Shown piece by piece: positions 14,650 through 58,560 of a stretch of DNA of 64,000 nucleotides. A program made the position numbers and the translations under genes. A model generated the notes under the pieces. That model worked only from the letters and a program-made list of their open reading frames with translations, did no database searches and was not told where the DNA came from. Each line of letters begins with the position of its first letter. Position 1 is the stretch's first letter. Source of the stretch: Datisca glomerata (taxonomy: Eukaryota; Streptophyta; Magnoliopsida; Cucurbitales; Datiscaceae); NCBI GenBank assembly GCA_003255025.1, contig QANY01005609.1, positions 853,152 through 917,151 on the forward strand, read 5' to 3'.

Positions 14650-14894
14650 TCTCTCAACCCTAATTAATACTCATTTACACCATCACTAAATGTGCTTGAA
14701 GATCTAAAAGATAAACAGAGAGAAATCAATTCTATATCAAAAGATTCAACAAGAAGTAAAGAGTTCTACAATGTCTAAAGATATGTTCTGTACAACTATG
14801 AAATATGAATGTTAAAATCGTGAAGTTCTAAAGATCTAAACAAAGTGTTTTATGCATAATTGATTAGATGCATGATAAATGAGAAAAACTTACA
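14650..14894 (+). mobile_element. Truncated 5' LTR of the large copia element
   Basis: These 245 bp match the last ~245 bp of the 3' LTR (20,655-20,899) nearly base for base: CTCTCA.AACCCTAATTAA, CCATCACTAAATGTG, ATTCAACAAGAAGTAAAG, TCTAAACAAAGTGTTTTAT. It ends ACTTACA. Two bases later TGGTTTCAGAG resembles the initiator-Met primer-binding site TGGTATCAGAG. The first ~190 bp of the LTR are absent, so the junction near 14,650 is a deletion or replacement breakpoint. Confidence 0.85.
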
Positions 14895-16164: not shown

Positions 16165-19100
16165 ATGTGTTTGAATCTGTATAATACGGTTAGTTTACAA
16201 TTCAAAGTATTAATGTATGAGCATAATGTTATTCTTGCAGTACATGTTCCCGATTCTCTCTATTCGCATGCTTCATTTGTACCAATATTTAATGGGTTTA
16301 ATTTCCCTGGTTGGTGTGAACAAGTCCAATTTCACTTAGGTGTTTTGGATTTGGATTTGTCATTTCAATTTGACAAACCTGCTGCCATTACTGATGCAAG
16401 TAGCGATGAGGATAAGACATTATATGATACTTGGGAAAAGTCTAATAGACTAAGCCTAATGTTTATGTGAATAAGTGTAGCAAACAACATCAAGTCTACT
16501 CTTCCCAAAATTGAAAATGCTAAGGAATTCATGAACTTTGTGGAAGAGCGTTCTTAGACTGCTGATAAGTCACTAGCTGGGACATTAATGGCTACATCGA
16601 CCACCATAGAATATGATGGAACTCGTAGCATGCATGAGCATGTCATTGAAATGATGAATATTGCAGCAAGATTTAAGTGCTTGGGGATGAATGTGGATGA
16701 GAGTTTCCTTGTACAATTTATCATTAATTCACTTCTTACTCAGTATGGTCCTTTTGAAATGAACTATAACATCATGAAAGATAAATGGAATGTGAATGAA
16801 CTTCACAATATGCTTGTTTGGGAGGAAATGAGACCTAAGAATTAGGAAACTAATTCCATTCATCTCATAAGTAAACAAGAAGCTGGAAAGAAAGTCGGAA
16901 GAAAGCATGGAAAGGACAAGCGTGAACCACCTAAAATTAATGAGTCATCTTCCCAAATCAATAAGAAGGAACACAAGAATGATAAGTGCCATTTTTTTGG
17001 GAAACCTAGACTCTTTCAGAAAGATTGCCTAAAGCGTAAGGCATGGTTAGAAAAGAAAGTTAAGCCTAGTGCTTTCGTATGTTTTGAATCAAATTTAGCT
17101 AAAGTTCCTTATAATACTTGGTGGATCGACTCTAGCTATACCACTCATATTTCAAATACGATGTAGGGATTCCTTACGACCAAAACCACAAATCCAAATG
17201 AAGTGTTCATTTATATGAAAAATCGAGTCAAAGCTCCAGTTGAAGCTATTGGTACTTATCAATTGATTTTAGATACGGGATATCATTTAGATAAATTTCA
17301 AACTTTTTATGTACCTTTTGTTTCTCACAATTTAATTTTTGTCTAAACTTGCTTTAGCTGGATACTCTTTTAAAATTGAAAATGGATGCATTAGTTTTTT
17401 TAAGAAAAATCATTTCATTGGTTCTGGTATTATTTGTAATGATTTATACAAACTGAAACTTGATAATCTTTTTGTTGAGAATCTTCTGACCTTGCATTAT
17501 AAATTTTGAACTGAACATGATTTAGAAAATGAACGTCTGCTTACTTGTGGCATAAACATCTAGGTCACATTTCCAAATAAAGAATGAAATCCTTCCAAAC
17601 TTGAAAATTTTACTGATCTAGGTATTTGTGTGGATTGTATTAAAGGAAAACAGACAAAACACACAAAGATAGGAACTACAAGAAGCACATAGTTTCTTGA
17701 AATAATACACACTGATATATGTGAGCCTTTTGATGTTCCATCTTTTGGTGTAGAAAAGTATTTTATCACCTTTATTGATGATTTTTCACATTATAGTTAT
17801 GTCTACTTGTTGTATGAAAAATCTCAATTAGTTGATGCCTGAGAAGTGTTTATTAATGTGGTTGAAAGATAATTAGACACAAAGGTGAAAATTGTCAGAT
17901 CTAATAGAGGTGGTGAATATTATGGAAAATATAATGAAGGTGGACAATGCTCATGTCTATTTGCTAAATTTCTTGAAAAGCATGGTATGTGTACTCAATA
18001 TACTATGTCGGGTACACCACAACAAAATGGTGTAGCAGAAAGATGTAATCGTACCTTAATGGATATGGTTAGGGGTATGTTAAGTAACTCATCTTTACCC
18101 ATATTATTGTGGATGCATGCATTGAAATCTAGCATTTATTTGTTAAACAGGGTTCCTAGTAAAGTAGTTCTTCAGACTCTTTTTTGAACCGTCGACTGGA
18201 TTAAAAATAATCAGTGGTTATTTAGAAAAATCTAAAGGGTATAGATTTTATTGCTCTAGCTATAGTACAAGAATTGTTAAAACTAGAAATGTCAGGTTCA
18301 TTGAGAACGGTGAAGTCAATGTGAGTCAAGAACCACAACATGTGGTGATTCAAGAAGTTAGGGTACAAGTTCCTTTACCCTTAGCTTCTTCAAAAGTTAT
18401 TGTTCCTCTAATTGTTGAACATTTAAACAATGGGCAAGAACAATAAGTTAATGAATAAACAACCCACAATGGAATATGGTGATCAACCTAGAGTAGATGA
18501 ACCACAAGAAATAACATTAAGGAGGTCTCAAAGATAAAGGAGGTCTGCTATTTCTGATGATTATGTGGTATATCTACAAGAGTCAGGAATCGATGAATAT
18601 CTAGTTTCATTTTCACATGCCATTAAAAGTGTTAATTCTATGAAATGGTTAGATGCCATGAAAGATGAACTTAAATCCATGGAGCAGAATGAAGTTTGGG
18701 ACCTTGTTGAATTGCCTCGAGGTTGTAAAAGGGTCGGGTGTAAATCAGTCTTCAAGACCAAATGTGACTTTAATGACAATATCGAACGACACAAGGCCAT
18801 AGTGGTTGCTAAAGGTTTTACTCAGAAAGATTGTATGACTACAATGAGATGTTTTCGCGTGTCTCCAAGAAAGAATCCTTTAGAAATATCATGGCTTTGG
18901 TAGCTCATTATGACTTGGAGTTACATTAGATGGATATGAAAACTGTCTTTCTAAATGGGAGTTTAGATGAAGAATACATTTTCGCCCGTTTCCTAAGGGT
19001 TTTTCCATTGAAAAAAAGGAACACATGGTGTGTAAGCTGAAGAAATTAATATATGCACTTAAACAAGCTTCCCGTCAGTGCTATCTTAAGTTCAATGATA

Positions 19101-20464
19101 CCATTACTTCTTTTGGATTTAAGGAATACACCATCGACTGGTGTATATATCTGAAGATCAGTGGGCGCAAGTAACTTTGAAAGATATGAGAGAGACAACT
19201 TATGTGATTAGAATAGAAATATTTCGAAAAAGATCACAAGGATGGTTAGAGTTGTTTCAAAAGTCATATATTAATAAAGTTCAAGAGAGATTTAGAATGG
19301 AAAAGTGCTCATCAAGTGTTGTTCTAATTTAGAAAGGAGATAAATTTACACTTATGCAATGTCCAAAGAATGAACTGGAAAGAAAACACATGGATGTGAT
19401 TCGTTATGCATCTATTGTTGGGAGCTTGATGTATGCTCAAGCTTGCACTAGGCCAGACATCAGTTTTGCTGTTGGAATGCTTGGTCGTTATCAATGTAAT
19501 CCAGGATTGGATCACTGGAAAGATGTGAAGAAACTTTTGAGATACTTGCAAGGAACGAAAGATCACATGCTCACTTATAGGAATCTGATCATCTTGAGGT
19601 GATTGGATATTCAGATTCAGGCTTTGCTGGTTGTATTGATACAAGAAAGTCTACGTTTGGCTATCTGTTCCATTTAGTTGGAGGAGCAACCTCATGGAAA
19701 AGTTTGAAGTAGTCTGTCATTGTTGCATCCACTATGGAGGCTGAGTTTGTGGCATGTTTTTAAGCTACAATTCAAGGAAATTGGCTGTGGAACTTTATTT
19801 CAGGACTTGAAATTGTTGACAGTATTGCCAGCCACTGAAAATTTATTGTTATAATGCCGCAGCTATCTTCTTTGTGAAAAATGATAAGTATTCAAAATGT
19901 GCTAAACATATGGTAATGGCAAGTGAAATACTTTGCCTTCAAAGAAGAGGTTTAGAAACAAACAGTGCTAATTGAACATATTAGCACAAACCTTATGATT
20001 GTAGATCCTTTAACAAAAGGATTTCCACCTATGATATTTATTGGTAATGTTGAAAGGATGGGCATTACTAGACATAATTATTGATGTTATGTAATGAATT
20101 TTATGATGTTTATGTATTGATACTTTGAGCTCAATTGTATGTTTTGTTTTTTATATTGTTTATATCATGTGATAAGTACATGAATGAATGAATAATGCTA
20201 ATAGGATTTGTCTTTAACAAGAACAATAATGTTACACCTATATGTAATTCTCACTTATAGATCATGTTAGATGAAGGCTGATGTTGTGGTATGTGGAATG
20301 AAGTATGTCGATTAATAATGTACAACCGTCATAACTCTCATTAGTTTTTACTTAATGATGATATTATGTTATCACCATTGAATTGAGGATTTTAGTTTTA
20401 TACTATGCGCATTATATTCTTCTATTAAATCATGAAAGAATTATCATATGGGCCAAGTGGGAAA
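16165..20464 (+). pseudogene. Large Ty1/copia Gag-Pol, degenerate
   Basis: Domains are in canonical copia order. Gag (16,230-16,850): FNGFNFPGWCEQVQFHLG. Zinc-knuckle remnant (16,985): KCHFFGKPRLFQKDC, second Cys lost. Protease remnant (17,115): WWIDSSYTTHISNT, DSG changed to DSS. Integrase: KHLGHIS, FIDDFSHYSYVYLL, and TPQQNGVAERCNRTL near 18,010. RT (18,565-19,130): MKWLDAMKDELKSMEQNEVW through DQ/SRQCY-like fragments. RNase H (19,360-20,060): SLMYAQACTRPDISFAVG to VDPLTKGFPP. There are many stops and frameshifts. The YVDD-containing segment between about 19,150 and 19,190 is deleted, so the element is dead. It is bounded by the LTRs at 14,650-14,894 and 20,465-20,899. Confidence 0.92.
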
Positions 20465-20899
20465 TGTAAGAATTATTTGACCCTATATAAATATTAATTA
20501 ATTAATATTGTTTAGTAGAAATAATTAAACAAAATCAAATTGGTTGATTATGTGGGAGGTGGTAACTTTGAAGTAAGTAATCACTATCTAATGGAAGAAA
20601 ACCACCACCTTGATGGAATGTGATATAAATATAATTCTCTTAGAAATTGGTCCTCTCACAACCCTAATTAAGACTCATTGACACCATCACTAAATGTGTT
20701 TGATGATCTAAAGAGTAAACAGGGAGAAATCAATTATACATCAAAGGATTCAACAAGAAGTAAAGTGGTTCTACAATGTCTAAAGGTATGTTCTCTATAA
20801 CTATGAAATATGAATGTAAAAATCATGAAGTTCTAAAGATCTAAACAAAGTGTTTTATACATAATTGATTAGTTGCATGATAAACGAGAAAAACTTACA
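20465..20899 (+). mobile_element. 3' LTR of the large copia element
   Basis: It follows the polypurine tract CCAAGTGGGAAA, begins TGTAAGAATTATTTG and ends ACTTACA, about 435 bp. A TATAAATATTAATT box lies near 20,494. Its last 245 bp match the truncated 5' LTR at 14,650-14,894. The two copies differ at a modest number of positions, so the insertion is old but not ancient. Confidence 0.85.
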
Positions 20900-21465: not shown

Positions 21466-21834
21466 GATATGTCAGCTGTTACAACAATTTTTATTGATAA
21501 AAAGGGTGGAGCTATATATAGGGCATACATTAGTAATCATAAAACATTATCTTTATATTTTTGTTTTGTGACCAAAATCCCCTGGCTATGCATATTAACG
21601 TCTCACTTTACATCCATTTTTTTACAAATACACCCTTTAGTGAATTACTAGCAACAGAGAGCCATGTTGAGTGGCTAAAGCTGAGTGGTAGAACACTTCT
21701 GGAAAGTCTATACGTTTTATGGTTGACAACATAGCAATGAGTATTTATGATCTGTTGTATGCATTTTCCTGTTGAAATAGTTTTTGTTTCCTATTTAGCC
21801 TAATTATTATAATGTTCCTACTGATAGAAAGAAA
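21466..21834. other. Non-coding, no recognised gene
   Basis: No protein match. Homology with the second HisRS-carrying CACTA copy stops near 21,835, so a breakpoint lies at this border. Confidence 0.4.
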
Positions 21835-23412
21835 TGGGTGTTTGTGTGTGTGTTTTGTCTTTTTTCAGTGTAGTTTGAACAAATAATATATTTTTTTACC
21901 AAAAAAAAGTTTGAACAAATCATCTATGTTTGCAGGTTGGTTCATTGCTGCTGGTGGATGTTATGAGAACCATATAGGAATGTTCGGCTCAAAGAAGGTC
22001 CCTGCAGTTGGTGTTAGCCTCGGAATTGAGAGAGTTTTTGTTATTATGGAACATAAATGATGCAAGAGATAACTTATGGTACACTTAATTCTCATAGCTA
22101 ATTAGTTTTTGGTTTTGTATGTCTTGGTAGTGTTGTGTTTAGTTTATGAAGTTTTCTTGATGAGTTTTCTATGTCTGAAATCTGATTGGTTGTATATCCT
22201 TAATGACATATGAAATCTGATGTAAAGAGGTAAAGGGAAAAACTTGGTAACTCTATAAATGTTATTTTGTTTCTGGTTCTATATGAAATTTTTTTCATCT
22301 AATTTGTCATCTTCTGGTTATGCATTGCTTCTCTCTTAAACATAACGCAACTACTTCATCTCCTAATGCAACTTTTTCTTCTCTATTTCCATTTTCGAAC
22401 TGTTCTTGATGAGTTTTTGGTTCTGTATGCCTTGGTAGTTTGTATTGTTATGGTTTTGCAGGGTTTTCAACTTAATGTTAATGGGGGTAGAGATGATAAA
22501 TTTGGCTCTATAAATATCGACCAAAGATGAGACAGATAAAGATTTTTCAACTTAAGGTTAATGTGTATTAAGGCAAAGTAAATGCATTTAATTTTCATTT
22601 TAGTATCCATTTATAGCCCAGTAAAAATGCTTCCTGCTCATGGGAGATTTACCTTGGGAATTCATTTTACAGGTAATTGCTCCATCAATGGCTCAGTTTT
22701 CAACAAGTATGCTTTGAAGAGCCAATATGACACAAGCATTTACCTCCAAGTGATATAATATGACTTTTATTGCTTGTATGAGTCTTGGATATAAAGTTGC
22801 AACTATAAATTGTGTAATCTTTTCTAATTTTATTGGAGTTTCTAGATTCGTTGTCCTGAAAAGCGTAATAAATATGACTCTTCCATTGCTTTAGAGCAAC
22901 ACTTCTTTAAGTTTGATTGTAGCCTTTAACATATCTCTTAGTAATTTTTATAACTTGTATCTTCTCAACTCTCAGAGCTATATTCAAAATACAAGATTTG
23001 TAAGAATTGTGCAATTGTTATCCTCTAACCTAAATTTATCTTTCCTAAATGTAGAATTTATTTTTTGTATGGTTTTGTTGTTTGTTTTCAACTTTTTTGG
23101 CGATGTTAGGAACTGTTATCATTAAATATGATTCTATCGGTAATTTTTTACGTTGTTGTCCATATATCACTTGTACCCTGTATTAGCTTTTGTAGCTCTA
23201 TAGATGTTTATTTCACATCTATTCAAAAAGTTGATATGTGATTTGTTCTTTTCTAACTGTGAGTTATTTTTTCATCTCTTACTAGGAATGTGGTCATTTG
23301 CTTTATTACTTGTTCTGCATTTTTGTCAATATTATGGAGAATTGTATTCTACTTGTTTATTCATTGAAAAATATATGGTGCTCTTTACTAAGAATATAAG
23401 TATATGATGTTG
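21835..23412 (+). mobile_element. HisRS-carrying CACTA family 1, copy 1 (truncated)
   Basis: The segment aligns in inverted orientation with 48,606-50,400: intron tail, HisRS exon, then about 1.35 kb of non-coding DNA with the same landmarks. Those include GGTACACTTAATTC, CTTGATGAGTTTTCTATG, TTTTCAACTTAA(T/G)GTTAATG, GCTTCCTGCTCATGGGAGA, TTCTAACTGTGAGTTATTTT-type phrases and AAGTATATGAT at the end. The match begins abruptly near 21,835 and ends abruptly at 23,412, where the tandem array starts. The upstream HisRS exon and RGLG/GLB3 fragments present in copy 2 are missing here. Confidence 0.85.
21936..22060 (+). pseudogene. Histidyl-tRNA synthetase exon (copy 1)
   Basis: After a TTTGCAG acceptor the exon encodes [15 protein letters not shown], then [16 protein letters not shown] and a TGA stop after MEHK. 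This is the class II motif 3 region of cytosolic HisRS, which charges tRNA-His. The G-x-S-x-G-I-E-R loop with its ATP-contacting Arg is intact. One base is missing just after the splice site (GTTGGTTC-ATT), so the frame from the previous exon is broken. The usual G-G-R-Y-D-N is changed to G-G-C-Y-E-N. Both copies in the window share the early stop, so the truncation predates their separation. Not functional. Confidence 0.93.
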
Positions 23413-23440
23413 ATAATACATTACTGTTTATGTTCGATTA

Positions 23441-25190
23441 TGCATGCTTTGAGGTTTAAGAGGCTGAATTTTATCATATTACCATTATTAATTGAATTTG
23501 ACTTTGTTTGAGGCTGAATTTTGTCAAGTGATGCATACTAGAGTCGGTTGGTAGGAAAATTGTTATTTTCGATGTACGAAACACATGTTTGAAAGTTCAA
23601 GTATATTCTTTGAAGGTGGGATGGGTATGGGTAGGGGAGGGGGGCTTTTAGAGGATGAATTATATTTGGTTATGCATGCTTTGAGGTTTAAGAGACTGAA
23701 TTTTATCATTTTATCATTGTTACTTGAAATTGACTTTGTCTGAGGCTGGATTTTGTCAAGTTATTCATACTAGAGTCGGTTAGTAAGAAAACTGTTATTT
23801 TTTATCTTGGTAACACATGTTTTAAAGTTCAATAATATTCTTTGATAGTGGGATGGGTATGGGTAGGGGAGAGGGCTGTTATAGGATGAATTATGTTGGG
23901 TTATAGGCATGCTTTGAGGTTTAAGAGACTGAATTTTATAATTTTACCATAATTAATTGAAATTGACTTTGTTTGAGGCCGAATTGTGTCAAGTTATTCA
24001 TACTATTTTCGGTTGATAGGAAAACTATTATTTTTTATGTTGGTAACATGTGTTTTAAAGTTCAAGAATATTCTTTGAAGGTTGGTGGGCATGGGTAGGG
24101 GAGGGGGGGTGTTAGAAGATGAATTATGTTTGGTTATGCATGTTTTGAGGTTTAAGAGACTGAATTTTATCATTTTACCATTATTAATTAAAATTGACTT
24201 TGTTTGAGGCCGAATTTTATCAAGTTATGCATACTAGTGTCGGTTGATAGAAAAACTTTTATTTTCGATGTTGGTTACACATGTTTTAAAGTTCAAGAAT
24301 ATTCTTTGAAGGTGGGTGGGCATGGGTAGGGGAAGGGGCTGATAGATGATGAATTATGTTTGGTTATGCATGCTTTGAGGTTTAAGAGACTGAATTTTAT
24401 CATTTTACCATTATTAATTGAAATTGACTTTGTTTGAGGCTAAATTTTGTCAAGTTATGCATACTAGTGTCGGTTGGTAGGAAAACTGTTATTTTCGATG
24501 TTGGTAACACATGTTTTAAAGTTTAAGAATATTCTTTGAAGGTGGGTGGGCATGGGTAGGGGAGGGGGCTGTTAAAGGTTTAATTATGTTAGGTTATACA
24601 TGCTTTGAGGTTTAAGAGCCTGAATTTTATCATTTTACCATTTTTAATTGAAATTGACTTTGTTTGAGGCCGAATTTTGTCAAGTTATGCATACTAGAGT
24701 CGGTTGGTAGGAAAACTGTTATTTGCCATGTTGGTAACACATGTTTTAAAGTTCAAGAATATTCTTTGAAGGTGGGGTGAGTATGTGTAGGGGAGGGGGG
24801 CTGTTAGAGGATGAATTATGTTTGGTTATGCATGCTACGAGATTTAAGAGACTGAATTTTATCATTTTACCATTATTAATTGAAATTGACTTTGTTTAAG
24901 GCCGAATTTTGTCAAGTTATGCATACTAGAGTCGATTGGTAGGAAAACTGTTATTTGTGATGTTGGTAACACATGTTTTAAAGATCAAGAATATTCTTTG
25001 AAGGTGGGGTGGGTATGGATATGGGGGCTGTTAGAGGATGAATTATGTTTGGTTATGCATGCTTTGTGGTTTAAGAGACTGAATTTTATCATTTTACCAT
25101 TTTTAATTGTTATTGATTGTGTTTGAGGTTTAATTTTGTCAAGTTATGCATATTAGAGTCGGTTGGTAGGAAAACTGTTATTTTTTATAT
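23441..25190 (+). repeat. 231-bp tandem satellite array, about 7.6 units
   Basis: TGCATGCTTTGAGGTTTAAG recurs at about 23,441, 23,673, 23,906, 24,138, 24,368, 24,598, 24,829 and 25,056, a period of 227-233 bp. Each unit carries GACTGAATTTTATCATTTTA, CAAGTTATGCATACTAG, GTCGGTTGGTAGG, AACACATGTTTTAAAG and a G-rich GGGTAGGGGAGGGGG block. Units differ by point changes and small indels in the G-run. The last unit is cut short and runs straight into a CACTA-type terminus. Confidence 0.95.
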
Positions 25191-25216
25191 TGTAGAATGC
25201 CATATTTCTTGTAGTG
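25191..25216 (+). mobile_element. CACTA family 1-type terminus after the array
   Basis: TTGTAGAATGCCATATTTCTTGTAGTG is the inverse of CACTACAAGAAATATG and is nearly identical to the terminus at 54,119-54,145 and the inverse of the one at 51,850. The next bases are TAT. No partner with a TAT target site is visible. Confidence 0.75.
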
Positions 25217-25999: not shown

Positions 26000-26334
26000 T
26001 ATAAGAGACATAATTTATAACCAAAAACTATATCAATGAGATTCAAAAAATCTTATGGTGTCTGATTTAATAGGATATAAAAATACATGTGAATATTAAT
26101 TCACGAGAATTATAAACACATGTTGAATAAAAGTAACATGAGTAAAAAAACTCATTAAACAATGTTTTACAGGAGACGAAAAATCTCGTAAAAAATGAGA
26201 TACCACAGGGGTTTTGACAGGAGGCGTCGCATCTCACGAAAAATGCATACTTTTAATATGAGGGGTTGTTGCAAGTGCCACATGATCCCTGTGGGGATAA
26301 CCACCTCTTGTAAAATTTCATTTTTCTTGTAGTG
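26000..26334 (+). mobile_element. CACTA family 1, 3' terminal region (third copy)
   Basis: It matches 1,890-2,165 and the minus strand of 47,982-48,270: GAATATTAATTCAC(G/T)AGAATTA, TGTTGAATAAAAGTAACA, ATTAAACAA(T/C)GTTTTA, then TAATATGAGGGGTTG and CTTGTAAAATTTCAT...CTTGTAGTG. The three bases after it are GTA. It may be the 3' end of the truncated copy 1 element, split off by the tandem array. Confidence 0.75.
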
Positions 26335-38367: not shown

Positions 38368-38514
38368 AATTATTTTAGATTTATTAGATTTGTTAAGCCA
38401 CATTCTCAGCCACCTTAGGTTCCACATGTGCAGTCCTTCAACTCTAATGACACATCAGCACATATCACCAACAAAGGAGTTAGTTAGGCATCCTCGCATA
38501 TTATTGGTTGTTAG

Positions 38515-39354
38515 CCTGAACTTCTTCAATGGTGACTAGCTCAGCTTGAGAGGTAACGTTTGCCACAGCTGAGTCATATTCAGGACCCAAACCAATGAGA
38601 ATATGAAGCATCAGGTCTTGTTCACCATCTGGATTACCAACTGCGAGAAGGTTATCTGCTATGATTCTCATTTTGTCAAAATAGTGTGAGATTGTCATCG
38701 AGTACTTTGGGGTATTGTTCAAAGCATTTTTCAATTGTAGGAGTCTGGCTTTGGAGCGACTGGCAAATGCCCTTTTAAGGGCATTCCATAGGATTTTTAT
38801 GCTATTATATTGTAGCATTGATCCGAGAACTCTTTCACTCATTGAAGAGTGAAGCCAGCTTAGTAGGAGTTGGTCACTTCTTATCCAGTCCAGAAATTCT
38901 GGGTTGATTGCTCCATCAGGTTGAGTCTATGGAGGAGGGTTCTAAGTTCCAAATACAAATTCACTCAGTCCGTGTCCAATGATTGTAGTTACTACATGTG
39001 ATTTCCATAGGACGAGATTGTCGCGGTCAAGCTTAATCGACAGAGTAACATTCAGAGTGTTCTTGAAAGGATTCAAGCTATCCAGGGTTCTGTTTAGAAC
39101 TCCTAATGACTCACGACTATTTTTTGTGCTGGCTGCATTGATGGTTTGCATAGCAACTTGGGCAGTAATGGGTTCCATTTTCGTCGTCAGAGGTGAGGGA
39201 GACGAATCTGCTCTGATACCAAGTTGAGAACATAAATATTGGATAACAAAAATCAGTGTTAGGTCTCCCTCACTATTGAGAAGCCAGCAAATATATATCC
39301 ACCAAAAGCAAGTTTGTTACAAACAAATGATTACAAAAGATTACATATATGGAG

Positions 39355-39389
<35 letters not shown>
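38515..39389 (-). pseudogene. Inverted segment: copia gag start, PBS and LTR 3' half
   Basis: Minus-strand reading, in order from the right: LTR 3' half with a (CT)n run, AACAAACTTGCTTTTGGTGG and TTATCCAATATT; then TGGTATCAGAGCAGATTCG (PBS). Next come MEPITAQVAMQTIN, IKLDRDNLVLWKSHV, MLQYNSIKILWNALKRAF, LKNALNNTPKYSM and LVTIEEVQ. These are UBN2/retrotran_gag-type copia Gag motifs. The right end joins a + strand continuation of the same protein (LLMSHESRIERKN). The left end joins the LTR. Undoing the inversion makes both junctions match the intact 3' LTR and a continuous Gag, so it is a single inversion, not two insertions. Confidence 0.9.
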
Positions 39390-40961
39390 CCTTACTCATG
39401 AGTCATGAAAGTCGTATTGAGAGAAAAAACACACGACGACTTAATCAGCTTCGTGTCACTGCCAATCTTGCTCAACATGGTGGAACCAAGAGGGAAGGTC
39501 AGTCTAACTCACAGTGGTGGTCTAACATGAACTATAACAACTACACCAGGTCTAACAATAGCTTCAGTCAGTACAGAGGGTCGAAGAGGCATTCGAGGTG
39601 GTAGGTCCAACAATACTACTGTCCTTTACCAAGTCTGCACAAAACCAGGGCACACTGCCACTACTTGCTGGTACAGGTTTGATAAAACCTTTCAGGGTAT
39701 ATCTAAAAACTTTAGTCCCACCTCACCTCAGAGTCCTACTTTTTGAACGCCTAACTTAAACACTAGTGCCTTTGTTGCTGCTCCAGAGTCAGTATCAGAT
39801 TCTTCTGGCATGCAGACAGTGGAGTTCTTAATCATATCATTGTAGATATTGGGAACCTAAGTGTTGTAAGTGATTATCAAGGTCAGGAAAAGCTAACTTT
39901 GGGGAATGGTAAGGCTCCGTCAATCAGTCATGTTGGTTCTACTCTCCTTAGCTACACTCCATATCCCTTTAAACTTCTTCAATTACTTAGAGTAACTGCA
40001 ATCACTAAAAATATTATTAGCATTTCTAAACAAACACAAGATAACCCTGTCTACGTGCTTTTTTATTCCACCTTTTGTTTTGTAAAGAATCTAGAAACAT
40101 GGATTACTCTTCTCCACGGGAAGCTTAAGGATGGTCTATATGAGCTCTTCCTGCCAAGTAAAGGACATGTTGTTGCTGTCTCCTATAATGTCTTTCTCAC
40201 ACCACATGGTCACTCTCCTTCATCAACCTCAAAAGTGCAGTCTAAGTCTAGTGTCAATAATGGATTACCTTTTTTAAGTCTTTAGTCCAAGTGTACTAGT
40301 TGTGTTGTCTCAGTGTTACAGTCTAATGAGTCTATTGTCTATAAGCATGCTCCAAACTATCATGTACTTACCACATCTAATATAAAAGTTTTCCCATATG
40401 TTTCCTTTCTTACCCTTGTGAATCTTGTTAATACTCAAACTTGCCATAATCAACTTGGACACCCCTCATCCAGAATCACTCTTGCCACTTTAAAAATGGT
40501 CAACTTAATCGTAATCCTCAACAACTAGAATTTTGTGACTTCTGCATAAAAGGGATTAGCCATGTTCAAACCTACCCCACTACCCCAACAAGAACTACCC
40601 AGCCTCTTCAACGCATTCACAGATATCTCTGGGTTCCAGCTTCAACTACTTCTAACTCTTGGTATAAATACTATATTCACTTCCTAGATGATTTCACTAG
40701 GTTCAGTTGGGTCTACCCCTTGAAACTCAAGTTAGAAGTCTTACCTACCTTCATGTACTTCAAAAAAATGATTGAAAAATAACTTGGACTGCCCATTAAA
40801 GTATTTCAAGATAAGGTTCTTGCCAAGCAACTCATGATTCAATATGTCCCCTCTACAGAACAGGTGGCTGACATTTTTACAAAGCCACTTTCAGGGCCTC
40901 GCTTTCTTTTCTTAAAGGACAAGCTCAATGTGGTTGCCACCCCTTTGAGCTTGAGGGGGGA
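39390..40961 (+). pseudogene. Copia Gag/protease/integrase remnant, RT deleted
   Basis: Gag continues: SHESRIERKNTRRLNQLRV, and a zinc-knuckle remnant VCTKPGHTATTCWYRF (first Cys lost by a shift). An LTR-element pre-integrase part follows: LETWITLLHGKLKDGLYELF, CHNQLGHPSSRITLATLK (H-x3-4-H of the HHCC finger), and the integrase core start YYIHFLDDFTRFSWVYPLK. After the deletion only the RNase H end remains (EQVADIFTKPLSGPRF). Several stop codons and frameshifts are present. No coding capacity for its own transposition. Confidence 0.88.
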
Positions 40962-45919: not shown

Positions 45920-47981
45920 TCTCTATCTCTCCCTCTCTCTCTCGCATTTTGGAATCTCTAAGTGCAGTCATGATCAGGGATAAGCTTTCAATTAGTTCCA
46001 TCCTCGTCTTCGTCTCGATGCGATTTGCAATCAGTTAGAATCTTGTTCGATTTTGTTAAAATTTATTTATGGTTTTCTCTAAGTTCGTAGGTTATGTTTG
46101 ATTTGAGGTAACTATTTAGCTTTGTTCGATATAGCTAAGCTTTTCATTTTGGGCTCTAAGCCTGCGATTCTATGTGTTGGTCAGTCACCGTCGTGGGTTT
46201 CACGGTCTCTCATTGTCTGTCAGATTCTGTGTTGAGCTCTTCACCATCTGGACAGGATAATAAAACTTATTTCATTGTCACGTAAGTTAAGCTCATTAAT
46301 GGTGAGTATCTCATTTCTCAATTTGCCTCCTTATTTCCCTATGATGGTTGTGTTTGTAATTTTAGGAACTTCTAAATCAGCAAACTATGGATTACATGAG
46401 CTTCAAGCTTGTGATTTTCAGTGAGAGTGGAACTGGTATGACTTTGTTTTCCTTTGTTTCACCTAGTGCTTGGTTAATCGAAAAAAATGGGGAAGGAAAA
46501 TAATCGAGCTTTCTGTTTCACCTAGAGTATTTTAAAGGAAGATTCTATCCCCTCTACTTTAGTACCTTTCCCCACGGAAGCAAATTATCCGAATTGCACA
46601 ATACATTATTGTTTAATTCTAAACACAGCCGGGCCTTTCAGAAGGAGCCCTAGCTGTAAAGAATATGCTCAATAATAGGCAATATCTTTTTAGCATTTCC
46701 CCTTAACTCTATAGATGCCCTTTTCTACTTTGAAATTTGACTAATTTCTTCAAAATTGGAGAAAATTCTTAGCTTATGATGGAAATTGTGGAGTATGAGA
46801 CTATTAGGTGCTTATATTCTATGGGTAATGCTTGATGCATGGGCTTCATATAAGATACTTTATTCTCAAATCTAAAGTCAATATTTCAGGAAGGACCTAC
46901 AGTTTCAGAGGTAATAATGTTGGGTACATATTTGTTGTTCACTCTCTCTGCAGATTCATATCATACACTATTTAACCTGATATTTTTTTACCGCATAAAA
47001 TTTTCATGTTTAGAATCTCTACTCTTAAACTTCTGGACTACATCATTCTCAGGGAAGTGTAGTACCGTTGTTGTTCAATCTTACAAAAGTTATCATCGAA
47101 TTGACACATTTGTTTAAGTTAGTTTTAGTTGTAGTTATGTGTCATGTCAGCTAGTGCATCTTTTTTTCTTATTTATACATTTTGTGTGAACCAGTACCAG
47201 GTGATGTGTAACAGTGTTACAACAATAACAATGCTATTGCTGTATGTTTGGGTGTATTGTGTAAGATCTTGGCTCTTTTAAGTTGGTTTATTGGTTTTAA
47301 GCTAATTGAATTTACTGATACTGCCTTGACATGGTATTCCGCATTACTCTAGGGGATTTTAGATAATTGAGACGAATTTTAGGTGAACTGCTAGATCTTT
47401 GTGAGATGTCTTTTCTAGGGGGATTTTAGATAATTGAGACGAATTTTAGGACCTTTAGGTAAACAGACATTCAAATCAATTAGAAGTTCAATTTAGCTAT
47501 TTTTCAAGGACACGATTCACCATATAAAATTTTTGCAATCAGTAGGCAATTATGAACACTCACCATTGTTACTACTAAAAGATCGGTTAGGATTGACTTC
47601 CTTATGTTTATTGAAGGTCCTTGATTGGTTTGAGGACTTGAGAACTTATGGTTTGAGAGCTTGAGAATTTGATTAAGGAAGAAAAGAGCTATGGATAAAT
47701 TCAATTAGTCTTTTTGAAATTCCCTTTGTTTGGGATGACATCATAAGAATTCTAGACCTAGTGCATCATAAGGTGAACAAAACCTTGATTGAAGTTGCAC
47801 CTGCCTGACATTTATTTAGACTACACACTGAATAAGTTTTAATGCTCTTACTCTTCTTTAGATGTGCAATTCAAGACTTTGACGTAAAGTTGCACCTTTG
47901 TGATTGAAGTTGCAACTGCATGGCACTTATCTGTTGTCTTGTCTCTTTTTTTGACAAACTTTGCTCATATGTTTGAAATCT
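45918..47981 (+). other. Outer CACTA cargo, leader- and intron-like DNA
   Basis: CTCTCT-rich sequence is followed by T-rich, gene-leader-like DNA. Possible small exons: 46,366-46,435 after ATTTTAG, and GAAGGACCTACAGTTTCAGAG at 46,891 between TATTTCAG and GTAAT. Another TTCTCAG acceptor lies at about 47,053. ATTTTAGATAATTGAGACGAATTTTAGG occurs twice (about 47,355 and 47,420). The host gene is not recognised. Probably captured non-coding and short exon sequence. Confidence 0.3.
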
Positions 47982-49193
47982 CACTACAAAAAATATATCA
48001 TTCTACAAGAGACATAGATCCCCATGAAACGTAATCCACAATGATCATGCGCCGCTTGTGACAACCCCTCATATTAGAAGTTCACGTTTTTCGCTAGGCG
48101 TAACGCCTCCTGTGAAGACCCCCGTGGTATCTTGCTTTTTACAGGATTTTTCGACTTCTTTAAAACGTTGTTTAATGAGGTTCTATGACTCCTGTTACTT
48201 TTATTCAACAGGATTTTTTAATTCTAGTGAATTAATATTCATAAGTACTTTCTATCATATAAAGTGAGATACGATAAAGTTCAAAATATTCATGTTAAAC
48301 ACTTTCAAAAGGATAATTTTAAATAGCATAAAGAACATCAATATAATAATGGACAACATTAAGATTTAATCATTTCAACAAAGTTTTACATTATTTATTT
48401 GATCTTCTTACAAATAAATTTAACTTAAAAACTAACTAACTTATCATTATACTATATAAACAACTGTTGTTCCAATAAATGAAAAATATAAAAATATTTG
48501 CACAAAATCATGTAAGTTAACCTAAAAAATATAATTTTATTCTTCAAATTCGAGAAGTCCTTACAACAGTTCCTAAGAGTTGCAGATACCTACAAACGAG
48601 CAATCATCAATATCATATACTTATATGCTTAGTAAAGAGTACCATATACTTTTCAATGAATAAACAAGTAGAATATAGTTCTCCATAATATTGAGAAAGT
48701 ACAGAACAAGTAATAAAGCAAATGACCACATTCTTAGTAAAAGATGAAAAAATAACTCACAATTAAAAAGGAACAAAACACAGATCGACTTTTTGAATAG
48801 ACGTGAAATAAACATCTATAGAGCTACTAAAACTAATACAAGATACAAGTGATATCTGGACAACAACGTAAAATATTACTGATAGAATCATATCTTTAAT
48901 GATAACAGTTCTTAATATCCCAAAAAGTTGAAAAAAGTACCATAACTATACAAAAATAAATTCTGCATTTAGGAAAGGTAAATTTAGGTTAGAGGATAAT
49001 AATTGCACTATTCTTACAAATCTTGTATTTTGAACATAGTTCTGACAATTGAGAAGATACAAGTTATAAAAACTAGTAAGAGATCTATTAAAGGCTACAA
49101 TCAAAACTTAAAGAAGTGTGGCTCTAAAGCAATGGAAGAGTCATCTTTATTACGCCTTTCAGGACAATGAATCTAGAAATTCCAATTAAATTA

Positions 49194-49415
49194 CTATCAA
49201 CATATCATACGATTCCTGACGGAGCATGCTTTTTTTTATACTTAACACTAAATGAGTACGCCAAATTTTTAAGGCAAACAAAGTTAAGGAGGAATTTTCC
49301 ATATCATCTCAAACTTTAGTCAAATTCATCCAAACATAGTGCCTCGTTAGCACAATCCTTTACTACCACATTTTTCATTAACAAAAGCTAATTTTAAGTA
49401 TAATTAAACTTACAT
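49194..49415 (-). mobile_element. ~220-bp insertion unique to HisRS copy 2
   Basis: Aligning copy 2 with copy 1 (22,810-22,850) shows an extra ~220 bp here. Copy 1 reads CTTTTCTAATTTTATTGGAG across the site. In copy 2 TAAT borders both sides of the insertion. No terminal inverted repeats were seen, so the type is unknown (short SINE/MITE-like or capture). Confidence 0.65.
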
Positions 49416-50183
49416 ATTAGAAAAGATTACACAATTTATAAATGCCACTTTATGTCCAAGACTCATAAAAGCAACAAAAGTCATATTATATCACCTGGAG
49501 GTGAATGTTTGTGTCATATTGGCTCTTTAAAGCATAATCGTTGAAAATTGAGGCCATTGATGGAACGGTTTCTGTAAAATGAATCCTTAAGGTAAATCTC
49601 CCATGAGCAGGAAGCATTTTTACCGGGCAATAATTGGATACTAAAATGAAAAGTAAACTCATTTACTTTTCCCTAATGCACATTAACCTTAAGTTGAAAA
49701 ACCTTTACTCGTCTCGTCTTTGGTCGAGCTTTTCTAAGCCAAAATTTATCATCTCTACCTCCATTAACCTTAAGTTGAAAAACTTGCAAAACCATAACAA
49801 TACTAACTACCAAGGCATATAGAACCAAAAACTCAGCAAGAACAGTTTAGAAATGAAAACAAAGAAGAAAAAGTTGCATTAGGCGATGAAGCAGTTGTGT
49901 TATGCTTAAGAGAGAAGCAATACATAACCAAAAGATGACAAATTAGAAAAAAAAAATTCCATACAGAACCATAAACGAAATAACAAATATAGAGTTACCA
50001 AGTCTTTTCCTATTACCTCTTTGCCTCAGATTTCATATGGGTTAAAGATATACAACCAATCATATTTCAGACATAGAAAACTCATCAAGAAAACTTTAGA
50101 ATTAAACATAACACTACCAAGGCATACAGAACCCAGAACTAATTAGCTATGTGAATTAAGTGTACCATCAGTTATCCCTTCCA

Positions 50184-51378
50184 TCATTTATGTTCTATAA
50201 TAACAAAAACTCTCTCAATTCCAAGGCTAACACCAACTACAGGGACCTGCTTTGAGTCGAACATTCCTATAAAAGGTTATCATAGCGTCCACCAGCTACA
50301 GTTGAACCAACCTGCAAATATAGATTATTTGTTCAAACTTTTTTTTGATAAGAAAATATATATTATTTGTTCAAACTACACTGAAAAAAGACAAAATACA
50401 CACACAAACACGTATTTCCGTTTATATGTCAATGCAACAGCAAGATCTTACTCAGTTCTCAAATACAGATAATAGATTCTCAATTTCTCATTGTACTTAT
50501 ACTTTATGGATGGTTTTACACTGATTAGTTACCAATTTCTCACTATATTAATACTCGGTTTTCAATGATTACTATCAATATTATTAGTAATCTTACAATT
50601 ACATCTTTTAACAATAATTTTTTTACTGATTAATACATTAACAAACATCTAATAATATTGGCCTATCACAAAGTTAAAGACTAAAGAATTTACAACTACA
50701 AACAAAAGGAGCATAAAGTATAATACAGTATAAACACGCCCATCCAGTACCAGTATCTCATCTAAGTTCCTAGATATCATTCAATTAAAAAAGAAACACT
50801 TGTGATCGGTTGAAGTTTATTCATATAAGGCTTTTAGCGAAGCATTAACAGAACCATTGCATCAAATAACTCATAAGCTATTATGACAAGACATCAAACT
50901 ACATTCTTTCTCATTCTCAAAGTTAAATCCATTTTCAATTCCTGTAACCACGCCTGCTCTAAAAATGTTGGCGGTTATCCCATAGAAACCTTAATCCCCT
51001 CCAACAATTGTTAAACGGAAACCTCAAGATATACATCTCTGGAAATGGTTACCAAGTCAAAATTACAGTTCTTCAAATTTCTTTTTTTCCCCTTAATTCT
51101 GTAGTGAAGCTCAAGAACCGTCAATGGACATTACTACGAGTATACAACAGTAAAAGACGCCTAAATAAAGTTCATTAAATAAATAGAAATCTACCTGAGT
51201 GCCTCCTTTGAAAACAGCTTCATAAATCACCCCAGTATAATAATCAAGACCTCTTGCAAGGCTCAAGTCAAACACACTTTGTCAATGCACTTTGACTTTT
51301 CGAGAGCGTTAAACATAATCTCCAGGTCACTCAATGCATCAGCAGATCCCTTATTTTCCAAAAACTTGCTGCCCTCTT
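50184..51378 (-). pseudogene. Histidyl-tRNA synthetase two-exon fragment (copy 2)
   Basis: Exon a (about 51,378-51,195) encodes GSKFLENKGSADALSDLEIM, LEKSKCIDKV, then FDLSLARGLDYYTGVIYEAV and FKGGTQ. Exon b (50,311-50,184) encodes VGSTVAGGRYDNL, then [15 protein letters not shown] and a TGA stop. These contain the histidine-specific LARGLDYYTG motif and class II motif 3 (G-x-x-x-G-x-x-R). The intron between them (GTAGAT...TTTGCAG, about 880 bp) is retained. Lesions: a 1-bp loss between CIDKV and FDLSL, and a 2-bp gain after YDNL. The stop just after motif 3 is shared with copy 1. The catalytic N-terminal half (motifs 1 and 2) and the anticodon-binding domain are absent. Confidence 0.94.
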
Positions 51379-51399
51379 GTTAAGCAACTATGGAATCCA

Positions 51400-51623
51400 T
51401 TGTCGCTTTTTTCCTGTGGACTGTACCTTCCAGGTGGGAAATATAAGACACGATCAAAATATTTCAAGGTCATGAGGGAGTGAAGAATACAAAATGAGAA
51501 AATTGACACAAGTGGAAAATATAAGACACGGTCAGGAACCTGTCCATCAACATGATAGCGCCAGTTGCTTTCCTCAACGACATCAATGGCCGTATCAATT
51601 ATTGGGGCAAATGATGTTGGACC
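51400..51623 (-). pseudogene. RGLG/copine-type vWA domain fragment
   Basis: The reading frame gives GPTSFAPIIDTAIDVVEES, then RYHVDGQV and, after a divergent stretch, GRYSPQEKS. Plant RGLG ubiquitin ligases and BON-type copines have G-P-T-S-F-A-P-x-I-x-x-A-I-x-I-V-E, Q-Y-H-V-L-V-I-I-A-D-G-Q-V and a later L-S-P-Q-E in their copine/vWA domain. Here the L-V-I-I-A strand between H-V and D-G-Q-V is deleted, and a phrase RVLYFP occurs twice around an internal ~90-bp duplication. It lies immediately upstream of the HisRS exon on the same strand, with no spacer that looks like an intergenic region, so two captured genes are fused here. Non-functional. Confidence 0.65.
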
Positions 51624-51849
51624 TATGTAACAAAGAGAAGATATTACCACAAATGATGTTTATTGGGTCAAAGAAATAGTGTCGGCCTGCGTAAGCATGA
51701 GTAAATAGAAAATCTTTTGAGAATGTCTGCAGCAAAGTCGAATTAATGTTTTCCAATAACAATATAACTACATATCCAAAGAAAACACTTTGAAAGAATC
51801 ATTCTTATACTAATTTAATGTTTATACGTAAAGAGAGAGAATAAAAATT

Positions 51850-51880
51850 CACTACAAGAAATATGATATTCTACAAGTAT
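51850..51880 (+). mobile_element. Internal CACTA family 1 terminus
   Basis: CACTACAAGAAATATGATATT followed by CTACAAG is as good a terminus as the outer two and lies inside the inner element, in the same orientation as its 47,982 end. It is preceded by ATT, which does not match the TCT after 54,145. Confidence 0.8.
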
Positions 51881-53308
51881 AATATGAAAAAAAATTATCG
51901 TGTGTTTCCCTTTCCCACTCCTCAAAATACACCATTTTAGTAGCAAATTAACTCCTTCCTCTCTCTCTCTTTGACAACGACAGTCCAACTCCTATAAAGA
52001 ATATTGTTATCACTCTCAAACATGATTGCTCTCTCTCTCACACTCTCTTTTCCTCTAACCTCTCTCTCATTCACACTCTCTTTTTCTCTAACCTTTCTTT
52101 CGATCCCACCCTTCTATGTCAACCCAATGACTCAACAGCCAAAATTCACAAAAGATAAATAATGATGGCAACAAAACCTAACCCTAAACTAACTAGTCAC
52201 CATATAAAGAAGCAGTAATAGACCCACAACATCAGGACCTACAAAGAAAAAGAAATGATGAGGAAAAGAAAAAAAGATAAAAGAAGGAAGAGATATTTAC
52301 TCGAAATCAAACCATTGTCCTTAGCACCAGAAATTAGAACAAAGATAATTGTTCGTATAGAAACAAGTTAAGAACGGAAACAAATCGCTCAAAATCATGT
52401 GCTTTTCAAATAGACATTGAGGGAGATTGAATATTATTGGGTATCAATTCATATCATAATATATTAAAATACAAGAAAAAATTAGTTTTACACATCAACA
52501 GGCAAAACAACACTTCGGAAAATCCATTAGGCCACAGGGGATCTAGAGAATGTATTCCCCACAACCCAAATCAATCTTCGTTCTTCAAGGCATAAAACCA
52601 CCTCAACTTAATTTAGATACGTATTTCTGATTATGGAAGTACCTAATTTCTAAAGTCGAAAATGAAGAATAAGATCTCCAACAATCATGGTACATGGAGA
52701 CAACGCAAACTCTGTTTTCTCTCTGCAGTGTAACACACTCAGCAAATAAATGACTTAGAATATAATTGCATCTATTACTCCTAAAAATGGGGAAAACCTC
52801 ATTATTCGACTGCAAATTATTAATTTGTAGGCATGGAAAGGATGGAAAAAAATGATACAGACAATTAAAGAGTTCCAATAAAAATAATTCTAAGAAGTAC
52901 ACACTTGCAAGTTCCTAATACTAGGTGCTGTCATCTCCACAGTTTACCAAACATAAAGAGTTGCATATTCAGAATACGCATAAAGTACCAAGAAAATCCA
53001 GCTTATAAAATGATAGCCAAACTAGAAACTGGAGCACAAGTCATCATGCAATAAGAATAGAAAACGCTGGATTTCCCACATAACAGAAAAAATTTCTCCA
53101 AAAATTATAATCAATACCGCAAAAAAAAAAAGAATTTCTAGAAACTTAGGTGGTGTGTTTGTGAGTGTTTGTGTGTGTGAGAGAGAGAGGGGGGGGCCTT
53201 ACCTGAGAAGCTTGAGCCTAGGGTATGCTTATGGCTAGTTAGAGACGAAGAGATTCGAGGCATATGTCAAATGATCTAAAAGAGAGTCCAATCCAGAAGG
53301 AAGCGAAC
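51881..53308 (-). other. Spacer in inner CACTA, intron-like
   Basis: AT-rich DNA with CTCTCT patches at 51,960 and 52,030. It separates GLB3 exon 1 from the RGLG piece. It begins (minus strand) with the GLB3 donor GTTCGCTT. No further GLB3 exon or other protein was recognised. Confidence 0.35.
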
Positions 53309-53445
53309 CTATTATAGAAGTTGGTAGAGAGATTAACGAAGGTCTGGAGCCCCAGCTTCTCAAATAGGGTAGCATCTTCAATGGTGAATGCATCTTCCCG
53401 CTTCACTCCGCTCCATTGAGAGGCTTTCTATTGCAGACTCTGCAT
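53309..53445 (-). pseudogene. GLB3: Class 3 truncated (2-on-2) hemoglobin exon 1
   Basis: The minus-strand ATG at 53,445 opens MQSLQ, a TAG stop in place of the usual Gln codon, then [24 protein letters not shown] and [14 protein letters not shown], before a donor-like AG/GTTCG. This is the N-terminal exon of plant class 3 truncated hemoglobin: M-Q-S-L-Q-x-K-A-S-x-W-S-G-V, then D-A-F-x-I-D/E and [17 protein letters not shown]. The heme-binding helices lie in later exons, which are missing. The nonsense codon at residue 6 is the only obvious lesion in the exon. About 200 bp of leader-like DNA precede it in the element. Confidence 0.9.
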
Positions 53446-54145
53446 CTCTCCTTCTGCGTTTGTGGTGACTTGAACTCTAAAAATTCAGAAAGAATTTGAG
53501 AGTGTAAAAATCTCACAGATCCACCATCGTCGTCAAGCAACAACCAAAGCTTGACAGCTTGAGAACCATTGCCACTCATCCATATCTCCTTAGACGAATC
53601 AGACACAGAGATAATTTTTACAAAATCAGATGAGAGAGAGACCTTATCTGAGAAGCTTGAGGCTAGGATGTAAATTCTTCCTCATCTTGTACAAAACGTG
53701 CATGCCAACTCTCTTCTACATGAATTCAGTGAACTTATTATACATTATCTTTCTATCTGTCTCTGTTCTATGATGACTATTCAATTACGAGTCAAGGCAA
53801 GGGTCAGCTTGATACTGAGAGAGACGAGGGGAGGGTCAGACTGAGAGAGACGGAGGCTAGGGTTTGCTTTCCCTCTTGGCTTCCCTTTGTCTAAAAGTTA
53901 GAAATAACCAAATGAGAGAGACTATACGAATTTTACTCGCGTTGAGCGTGAATAGAATTTTCATGCCCACGTTTTTTTATCAAGTCTCACTCCTCTAAAT
54001 TCTCACTTACGCCTTCTTCTCTTTTTGCTTTTTAACAAGAATTTTTTTACGTGATTCATAAAAAATCTTATTGTTTGTAGTTTTCTACATGAGGAGACAA
54101 AAAACCCTGTACTTAAAACTTGTAGAATGCATATTTGTTGTAGTG
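53446..54145 (-). other. GLB3-side flank and subterminal region of inner CACTA
   Basis: The first ~200 bp read open upstream of the GLB3 ATG (MSGNGSQAVKLWLLLDDDGG) without a stop before it, but I recognise no protein. 53,160-53,240 and 53,620-53,670 share a GAGAGAGA..CTTA(C/T)CTGAGAAGCTTGAG(C/G)CTAGG phrase, a ~470-bp spaced direct duplication. The last 140 bp form the subterminal region. Confidence 0.4.
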
Positions 54146-54148
54146 TCT

Positions 54149-57000: not shown

Positions 57001-58560
57001 CAGGAAAACTAATACATTTTTCGCCTTCTCATTGTAGCCCCACCAAAACTTTTCCATTGTCCTCTCGAGATCCTTACAAACACTCTTCGGTATTCGGAAA
57101 TAGTTCAAACCATCAACCAATAAGGCTTTCCAACATGCTTTTTGAAGGATCTCTTTCCCACCCAATGAAAATTGTTTTGCCTCCATCTTATTGAAAGCTT
57201 ATGGATTTTATCTTCTAGGTATCCAAACAGAGCTTTCTCTGATTGACCTATAAAGGACGGGAAGCCCAAATAGGAATAAATACTAATGGTACAAGAAATG
57301 TCCAGAATACCAGTGACCATTGATTTCACCTTCTGAGTTTGTATTTGGGGAAAAAGTTACTGTCGATTTAAAGAAGTTGATGCACTGCCCTGATGCTTTT
57401 GAATAAGCATTTAAAATTTGTTTGAAAGTACTACACACCCTCTTTATACCATTGAAAAATAAAAGATAGTTGTCAACAAAAAGTAAATGAGAAACAATCG
57501 GCCCCCTCCTGCCAATTCGTGGGCATCGAATCAAACCCGAATCAACAACCTTGCCTAGCATAGCCGATAACCCCTCTACACACAGAACATAAAGATATTG
57601 GGATAACGGGTCACCCTGTCGGATTCTCATATTGGGTACAAAAGAAGGAGATGGTTTTCCATTTATGAGTATTGCCATTGAAGTTGAAGTTACACACCTC
57701 ACAATATTTTCAATAATTTTTTCATGAAAAGCAAAAGCTCACACTATCCTCTGCTAATAATCACATTTGATTCGATCATATGCCTTACTCATGTCTAACT
57801 TAACTGTCACCAAACTCTTTTATCCTTTTCTACAAATCGACATCGAATGGGAGACCTCAAACCCCGCCAGAACATTATCCATAACTAAGCAATTTTTTAT
57901 AAAAGCACTTTGATTTTCACATATAATCTTCGGGAGGAGCATTTTAATCTACGGGCAATCATTTTTTAGATAATTTTGTATAATATGTTGCATAAGTTAA
58001 TCAGACTAAAATCAAATAAGCTTATAGGATCAGAAATTTTAGGAATCAGAATGTCATTGATATTAGATAAAGCTACATCCTTATTTAGACATGACAAGCA
58101 GAAATTCATTACCTCCCTTCCAACAATATCCCATTGTTTTTTATAAAAAGCTACTGGAAAACCATCTGCACCAAGACTCTTATGTTGGCATTTCTTTGAT
58201 TGCCCACTCCACATCCTCAGCTTTGTAATCTTAGATCAGCTTTGCATTCATCACTTCCTCACCTTATGATCAATACACCTCATCACCCAGTCCATCTCCT
58301 CAATACCGGGCTTCTAGAAGAAAACATGTTTTCAAAGTAGTTAGCTGCTAGAGAGCCTAGCTCCTCATGCTTCTCTACCCAATTTCCATCCTCCCCTAGA
58401 AGTTTCCTAATTTGATTTTTCCTCTTTGTCATTGAAGCTTTGGCATGGAATAACTTCGTATTTGCATCCCCGTATTTAAGCCAATCCATTTTTTGCTCTT
58501 TAAGACAACAATGCATATTCCTGGTAAAGGGCCCCATCCAATTTCTCACGGCATGATTTA
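57001..58560 (-). pseudogene. LINE reverse transcriptase domain
   Basis: Minus strand, from the right: MDWLKYGDANTKLFHAKAS (the W-x-x-x-G-D-x-N-T-x-F-F-H block), SLGADGFPVAFYKKQWDIVG (palm start), RQGDPLSQYLYVLCVEGLSA (motif 5-like), LFVDNYLLFFNG in place of the catalytic F-A-D-D, then YLGFPSFIGQSEKALF and the KL..RW thumb segment. Frames change several times, and the catalytic Asp-Asp pair is degraded to Asp-Asn, so the enzyme is dead. Confidence 0.92.

Follow-up and report, generated by a model that had tools for sequence, protein, structure and literature searches.

Introduction

CACTA (En/Spm) transposons that carry pieces of host genes have been described in several plants. The soybean element Tgm-Express1, in the wp allele, is 5.7 kb long, holds five host gene fragments and makes chimeric transcripts (PMC1947982). 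In the Tpn1 family of Ipomoea nil, the interior of non-autonomous members is host genic DNA, and a chimeric transcript has been reported (PMC5105172). Among the Pack-TYPE elements of maize, Pack-CACTAs hold the most distinct loci, and a neighbour-fusion model proposes joint movement of a pair of adjacent elements together with the DNA that separates them, the internal terminal inverted repeats (TIRs) being deleted or mutated (Gisby and Catoni 2022, PMC8903248). In this study, we analysed a CACTA-type element of Datisca glomerata that carries pieces of a HisRS, an RGLG and a truncated hemoglobin (globin) gene and lies at positions 47982-54145 of the window, that is, the whole stretch of 64,000 nucleotides analysed (contig QANY01005609.1, labelled C548 here, positions 853,152 to 917,151). 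We regard it, with a probability of roughly 0.6, as a non-autonomous Pack-CACTA built by fusion. All positions are in window numbering, and relatives and parent genes were sought in the organism's own genome assembly (678 Mb).

The locus shares features with each of the described systems. It resembles Tgm-Express1 in its size and in having several unrelated host fragments that keep their exon/intron structure; whereas Tgm-Express1 has five fragments and lies inside an expressed gene, here three decayed fragments are present, and two source families and an internal terminus were identified (PMC1947982). With Pack-CACTA and other Pack-TYPE elements it shares CACTACAA termini, captured genic DNA and the outer ends of neighbours with host DNA between them; the neighbour-fusion scheme has its internal TIRs lost or mutated (Fig. 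3A of that paper), whereas one near-perfect inner terminus is kept here (PMC8903248). The Tpn1 family has 28-bp CACTA-superfamily ends, mostly 3-bp duplications and host genic interiors, but it belongs to another host and is likened to our families A and B by description only (PMC5105172). CACTA elements of Chenopodium combine captured gene fragments with tandem arrays, comparable to a 230-bp array at 23428-25184 of the window, but those elements have transposase-type domains, none of which was seen here, and the fragments are outside their coding sequence (PMC8978399). The original prediction, a sequence-only reading of the window, implied that a combination of three genes is rare; it is less so than implied, given the five fragments of Tgm-Express1 (PMC1947982) and the distinct loci of maize Pack-CACTAs (PMC8903248). 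A literature search, mostly at listing level, found no published account of this element or of an inner end retained in this way, and at listing level nothing relevant was found that links CACTA elements with HisRS and hemoglobin.

Termini and classification

The element has inverted ends of 28 and 27 bp, at 47982-48009 (plus strand) and 54119-54145 (minus strand), and is flanked by a TCT target-site duplication at 47979-47981 and 54146-54148. Written with its flanks it reads TCT-CACTACAAAAAATATATCATTCTACAAG ... CTTGTAGAATGCATATTTGTTGTAGTG-TCT, the end type being CACTACAA...ATTCTACAAG. Aligned to each other, the two ends agree in 25 of 30 columns with a score of 18, compared with a maximum of 9 among 20,000 random pairs from the window. 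On a 25-position terminus consensus derived from the window's own ends, both outer ends scored 24/25, while the best site in shuffled sequence (20 shuffles, one strand each) reached 19; the whole window contains six CACTACAA-type ends, each matching 23-25 of the 25 scored positions. The TIRs starting with CACTA and the 3-bp duplication are those of the CACTA (En/Spm) superfamily.

A six-frame Pfam scan of the element, with X at stops, found no protein family and thus no transposase, in keeping with a Pack-CACTA. Since the same scan also missed the known short gene pieces, being weak on short fragments, it rules out a long transposase domain only. No autonomous partner was seen in the element and the related pieces scanned, no genome-wide transposase search having been made. 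An Rfam scan at gathering thresholds and a pattern search among viral contigs gave no match. Among the 104 open frames listed, 20 were scanned with Pfam, with nothing above cut-off, and a PDB search of two of these 20 gave nothing below E 0.2. The Pack-CACTA class is further indicated by host gene DNA from genomic parents, introns included, and by relatives with the same ends elsewhere in the genome; the latter applies to parts of the element, and the whole composite has no second copy among the matches listed. The inverted termini, the TCT/TCT duplication and, for long domains, the lack of a transposase had all been read correctly from the sequence at the outset, as had the minus-strand pieces of a truncated hemoglobin, an RGLG von Willebrand factor A (vWA) domain and HisRS, which PDB matches and parent DNA confirmed.

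Two families and a kept inner terminus

The mosaic make-up and an internal terminus are both absent from the original prediction. By genome comparison, the element is a mosaic of family A on the left and family B on the right, with RGLG DNA between them and matching TCT outermost. At least part of the family A sequence at 47982-49212 (plus strand), which comprises the left end and the adjoining interior, is found again at more than 30 further places listed, with identities of mostly 84-90% and of 76-77% on contigs C701 and C402; the family A search gave 73 matches, a lower bound, with the best 40 of 1953 candidates scored. A core at 48603-50427 (plus strand) is common to a second copy in the window, at 90% identity over 1586 aligned bases.

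The family B search (query 51650-54145) gave 107 matches, with the best 40 of 594 candidates scored. Its recurring blocks are 51873-52397, 53132-53667 and 53788-54145, which occur together in part of the places, and among the matches listed at least 36 other places contain the globin exon in full. In the element, the first block (51873-52397, plus strand) and the second block with the right end (53132-54145, plus strand) are separated by 734 bp (52398-53131), where three B copies (L036, L037 and L038) have 103-107 bp; within this stretch, 52652-52964 resembles family A on C1199 and C1004. The right end of the B copies is visible in two of the three, the stretch retrieved for the third being too short. 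Over about 340 bp, the element's right end is 91-93% identical to these two; its identity to the right ends of four family A elements is 77-81% (123-135 bp).

The internal CACTA terminus (51850-51877, plus strand) is oriented like the left end and scores 25/25 on the consensus. The RGLG DNA stops at TT-CACTACAAG, where the terminus begins at 51850 and the parent gene continues with unrelated bases. On its other side, the terminus passes into B interior at an ACAAG microhomology (51873), leftward of which the B copies differ. We also considered 51850-54145 as an intact family B element, which was rejected because B copies pass 51873 without the terminus.

Gene pieces and their parents

The genome search yielded one parent gene for each piece, on C652 for HisRS, C722 for RGLG and C281 for globin. 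The captured HisRS segment (50188-51381, minus strand) consists of two exon pieces with their intron, as the original prediction had it; it has decayed and corresponds to C652:502453-496085 minus an insertion that now sits in the parental intron. In detail, 50188-51135 matches C652:502453-501547 and 51130-51381 matches C652:496353-496085, with Kimura two-parameter distances (K2P) of 0.069 and 0.041, respectively. The exon pieces at 51196-51381 and 50187-50313 (both minus strand) are frameshifted, while both parental exons are free of stops; concatenated for the search, they matched the cytoplasmic histidine-tRNA ligase 5w6m, which we take to be the human protein, at E 1.5e-25. The insertion in the parental intron (C652:496353-501547; L018/L019) measures 5.2 kb and has terminal direct repeats of about 139 bp, 93.5% alike, and an AGTAAT duplication. 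Both the present element and a family A element on C711 read through the insertion point without it, which means that HisRS was captured from an insertion-free allele, and the capture probably predates the insertion. Elements on C514 and C484 keep a longer HisRS stretch (to C652:502794), with about 970 bp that are missing here. The border near 50193, with its TGTT microhomology, therefore looks like a secondary deletion joint and not the first capture border. The HisRS stretches on C514 (L020) and C484 (L028) are identical and both are flanked by AAA, so the assembly may contain a single locus in duplicate here, not two insertions.

Among the places retrieved, HisRS lies on transposons at at least 15, including the present element and the second copy in the window. 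A tree of 16 HisRS stretches (15 transposon-borne and the parent), built on only about 230 bp and with modest branch supports, is nearly a star in which the parent has a short branch (0.028). This fits a single capture followed by quick spread.

The RGLG segment (51383-51849, minus strand, about 467 bp) keeps an intron; relative to its parent, C722:10713-11205, it lacks 15 bp of coding sequence and is frameshifted. The blastn match to this parent covers 51383-51845 (K2P 0.066). The segment matched RGLG5, RGLG2 and RGLG1 (8xt5, 8hmg and 6k88) in the PDB at E 9e-6 to 2e-5. The second RGLG piece alone was non-significant in the PDB search, with one match at E 0.66 to a different protein, and was identified by its DNA match to the parent. 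The parent alignment also rules out a duplication for the repeat at 51431/51509, showing an intron and small gaps instead. The C711 element has RGLG as well: HisRS runs to C652:494200 and is followed by 180 bp of RGLG and then a 35-bp HisRS scrap, so that the HisRS-RGLG joints differ between the two elements. No right end of the C711 element was found within the 9 kb read.

The captured globin segment (GLB3-type, class 3 truncated; 53261-53472, minus strand) runs from 25 bp ahead of the ATG through exon 1 into the start of intron 1, and aligns to C281:356972-357181 with a K2P of 0.12. Its stretch 53427-53305 matched the 2-on-2 hemoglobin 4c0n, presumably the Arabidopsis protein, at E 1.5e-11. 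Exon 1 (53306-53445, minus strand) was predicted to be a genuine first exon with its ATG. The ATG is indeed present at 53445. In codon 6, however, TAG replaces the parental GAG, and the frame reads MQSLQ-stop; parental exon 1 is free of stops. The capture borders agree within 3 bases in four copies, the element and three B copies (C281:356972 to 357180-357183), and these common borders point to one capture. At codon 6, L038 has the same stop and L037 a tyrosine codon, and L036, which has no ATG of the expected form, was left unread. A 36-bp direct repeat (83%; 53187-53222 and 53632-53667) flanks the globin piece, also in B copies; a capture footprint and a subterminal repeat are both conceivable.

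The retained introns show that genomic DNA was captured and exclude a retrocopy origin. Had adjacent genes been copied by segmental duplication, with CACTA ends near them by coincidence, the parents should be neighbours; they are on three different contigs, a result that holds at contig level, the RGLG parent lying about 10.7 kb from its contig's start. Moreover, the HisRS and globin pieces recur in CACTA-ended places, and RGLG recurs in one more family A element. We found no point in favour of this explanation and consider it hardly credible.

All three pieces have decayed, by the globin stop at codon 6 and by frameshifts in HisRS and RGLG, and a protein function is unsupported by these frames, as only five residues precede the stop in the globin frame and the others are broken. 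The early stop excludes a chimeric protein from the globin ATG. An expressed functional chimeric gene, whose product would be a fusion protein or a small RNA directed at the parents, could still draw on the donor and acceptor dinucleotides retained at the HisRS and RGLG exons (CAG/GTAGAT, TTGCAG/GT and ATAG/GT), on the common strand of all gene pieces and on the precedent of chimeric transcripts from Tgm-Express1 (PMC1947982). Given the codon 6 stop, found likewise in L038, the broken HisRS and RGLG frames and the mere 25 bp captured upstream of the globin ATG, which leave little parental promoter, we regard such a gene as very improbable.

Assembly of the element

The original prediction placed three genes in one CACTA element; this stands, but the locus looks more like a fusion of families A and B than like a single element that collected all three. 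The order we propose begins with capture and spread of HisRS, then capture and spread of globin, followed by fusion and decay. A shortened family B derivative with an intact left terminus would have inserted into RGLG-derived DNA close to the left end of a family A element. Supplied from elsewhere, a CACTA transposase would then have paired the A left end with the B right end, moving all between them to the present site, and the gene pieces would have decayed afterwards as neutral DNA. As in the neighbour-fusion model, each half is a separate family elsewhere (for B, a left end was not found), and host DNA lies between the former elements (RGLG, 51383-51849, possibly an earlier capture). Of the inner ends, one is kept at 25/25 and the other is absent.

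The joints also suit a different course, in which family A excision was followed by gap repair switching templates to RGLG DNA and family B, with closure by microhomology. Such repair can explain several of them: the microhomologies ACAAG at 51873 and TGTT at the HisRS 3' border, the HisRS-RGLG joints unlike those in C711, the 734 bp replacing 103-107 bp inside B, and family A derivatives with internal deletions. It does not easily explain the clean TT-CACTACAAG border with its 25/25 terminus, which is the trace of a transposase insertion and unexpected from repair, nor a right end that is B-like up to the matching TCT flank. We consider repair possible though not favoured; it overlaps partly with the fusion proposal, as do the odds given to each.

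Nested insertion without later joint movement has also to be weighed. A B-type element would have entered an A-type element carrying HisRS and RGLG, whose right end was then deleted, and both the RGLG next to HisRS in the C711 element and the internal terminus adjoining RGLG DNA are consistent with this. It requires TCT/TCT to be a chance match, which base composition puts at about 1 in 46. In an end scan of 27 loci, some overlapping, 12 had two facing ends; the flanks of eight of these were identical over 3 bp (C514 and C484 maybe being one locus), two had one mismatch and two were unmatched. With identical flanks so common among two-ended relatives, nested insertion alone seems unlikely.

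Several observations weigh against the fusion we propose. The 51850 terminus may not be the natural left end of B: B copies extend leftward without it, and no above-chance end was found upstream of two B copies in 2.7 kb. With up to three mismatches allowed, the junction of the terminus with B has a single occurrence in the genome, the other match differing at B-specific bases. Since no case among the matches listed combines HisRS or RGLG with B, the matching TCT flanks are the one observation that speaks for mobility of the composite. RGLG may have been captured before fusion, because the C711 family A element has RGLG too, with other junctions. Finally, 52398-53131, compared with the B copies, shows at least one further exchange.

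A more speculative extension takes the locus as a frozen intermediate of gene stacking, in which one right end serves the left ends at 47982 and 51850 and two mobile units overlap. RGLG, between the left ends, would be captured whenever the longer unit moves, and end-sharing, not single captures, would be the main route to multi-gene elements in this family. The captured genes would also be biased in strand; all four pieces, HisRS, RGLG, globin and a helicase piece on C701, are oriented against the left end. We find this doubtful.

Related copies and other repeats in the window

The second HisRS-bearing family A copy, likewise absent from the original prediction, lies reversed at 21824-23417 (minus strand). 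Beside it, inside an outer left-type family A end at 26053-26334 (minus strand), is a terminus at 25188-25216 (minus strand), and a 230-bp tandem array of 7.6 copies fills 23428-25184 between its core and the internal CACTA terminus at 25216. An element on C492 (L016) shares its outer end, inner terminus and core order; both have a same-orientation internal terminus with an ATA flank, and their outer flanks differ. On C1 (L032, C1:640500-649600), two left-end stretches stand in direct tandem, the second without a terminus, a further sign of fused elements as judged from their layout. With these inner termini and tandem left ends, composite layouts are not unique to the present element. The K2P between the two cores in the window is 0.108 and that between the left end and the end at 26334 is 0.255, unequal values which indicate that parts of the element have different histories. 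At a substitution rate of 0.7-1.3e-8 per site per year, the core split from the second copy about 4-8 million years ago. A stretch of about 222 bp (49195-49416) with TAAT at both borders is present in the element and missing from the copy at 22825.

Elsewhere, a HisRS-bearing relative on C701 (L010, C701:447379-452400) carries a Helicase_C piece (Pfam, E 2.5e-11) on the same strand as HisRS, and the HisRS-bearing L034 on C402 shares much of this helicase stretch at 92%. Another left-type CACTA end occurs at 1629-2165 (K2P 0.235 to that of the element); the window shows no partner for it, and its element may continue beyond the window. Retrotransposon remains occupy 14650-20899, 38501-40285 and 57283-57738. 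In the first, a 246-bp direct repeat (14650 and 20654) brackets part of a Copia-type reverse transcriptase (18538); the second has a Copia-type gag fragment at 38504, and the third another, separate fragment of a reverse transcriptase at 57286.

Discussion

The data suggest that the element is a clear, unusually readable example of an already proposed process, not a new process, and the kept inner end is the sole feature that departs from the published fusion scheme. The gathering of several genes by DNA transposons can be explained by neighbour fusion or by template switching in repair. Two families have spread pieces of a tRNA synthetase and a globin gene widely in this genome, and such pieces can mislead gene annotation. 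Since the source families, the parents, the joints and the kept inner terminus are legible in one genome, the order of events is testable in related species.

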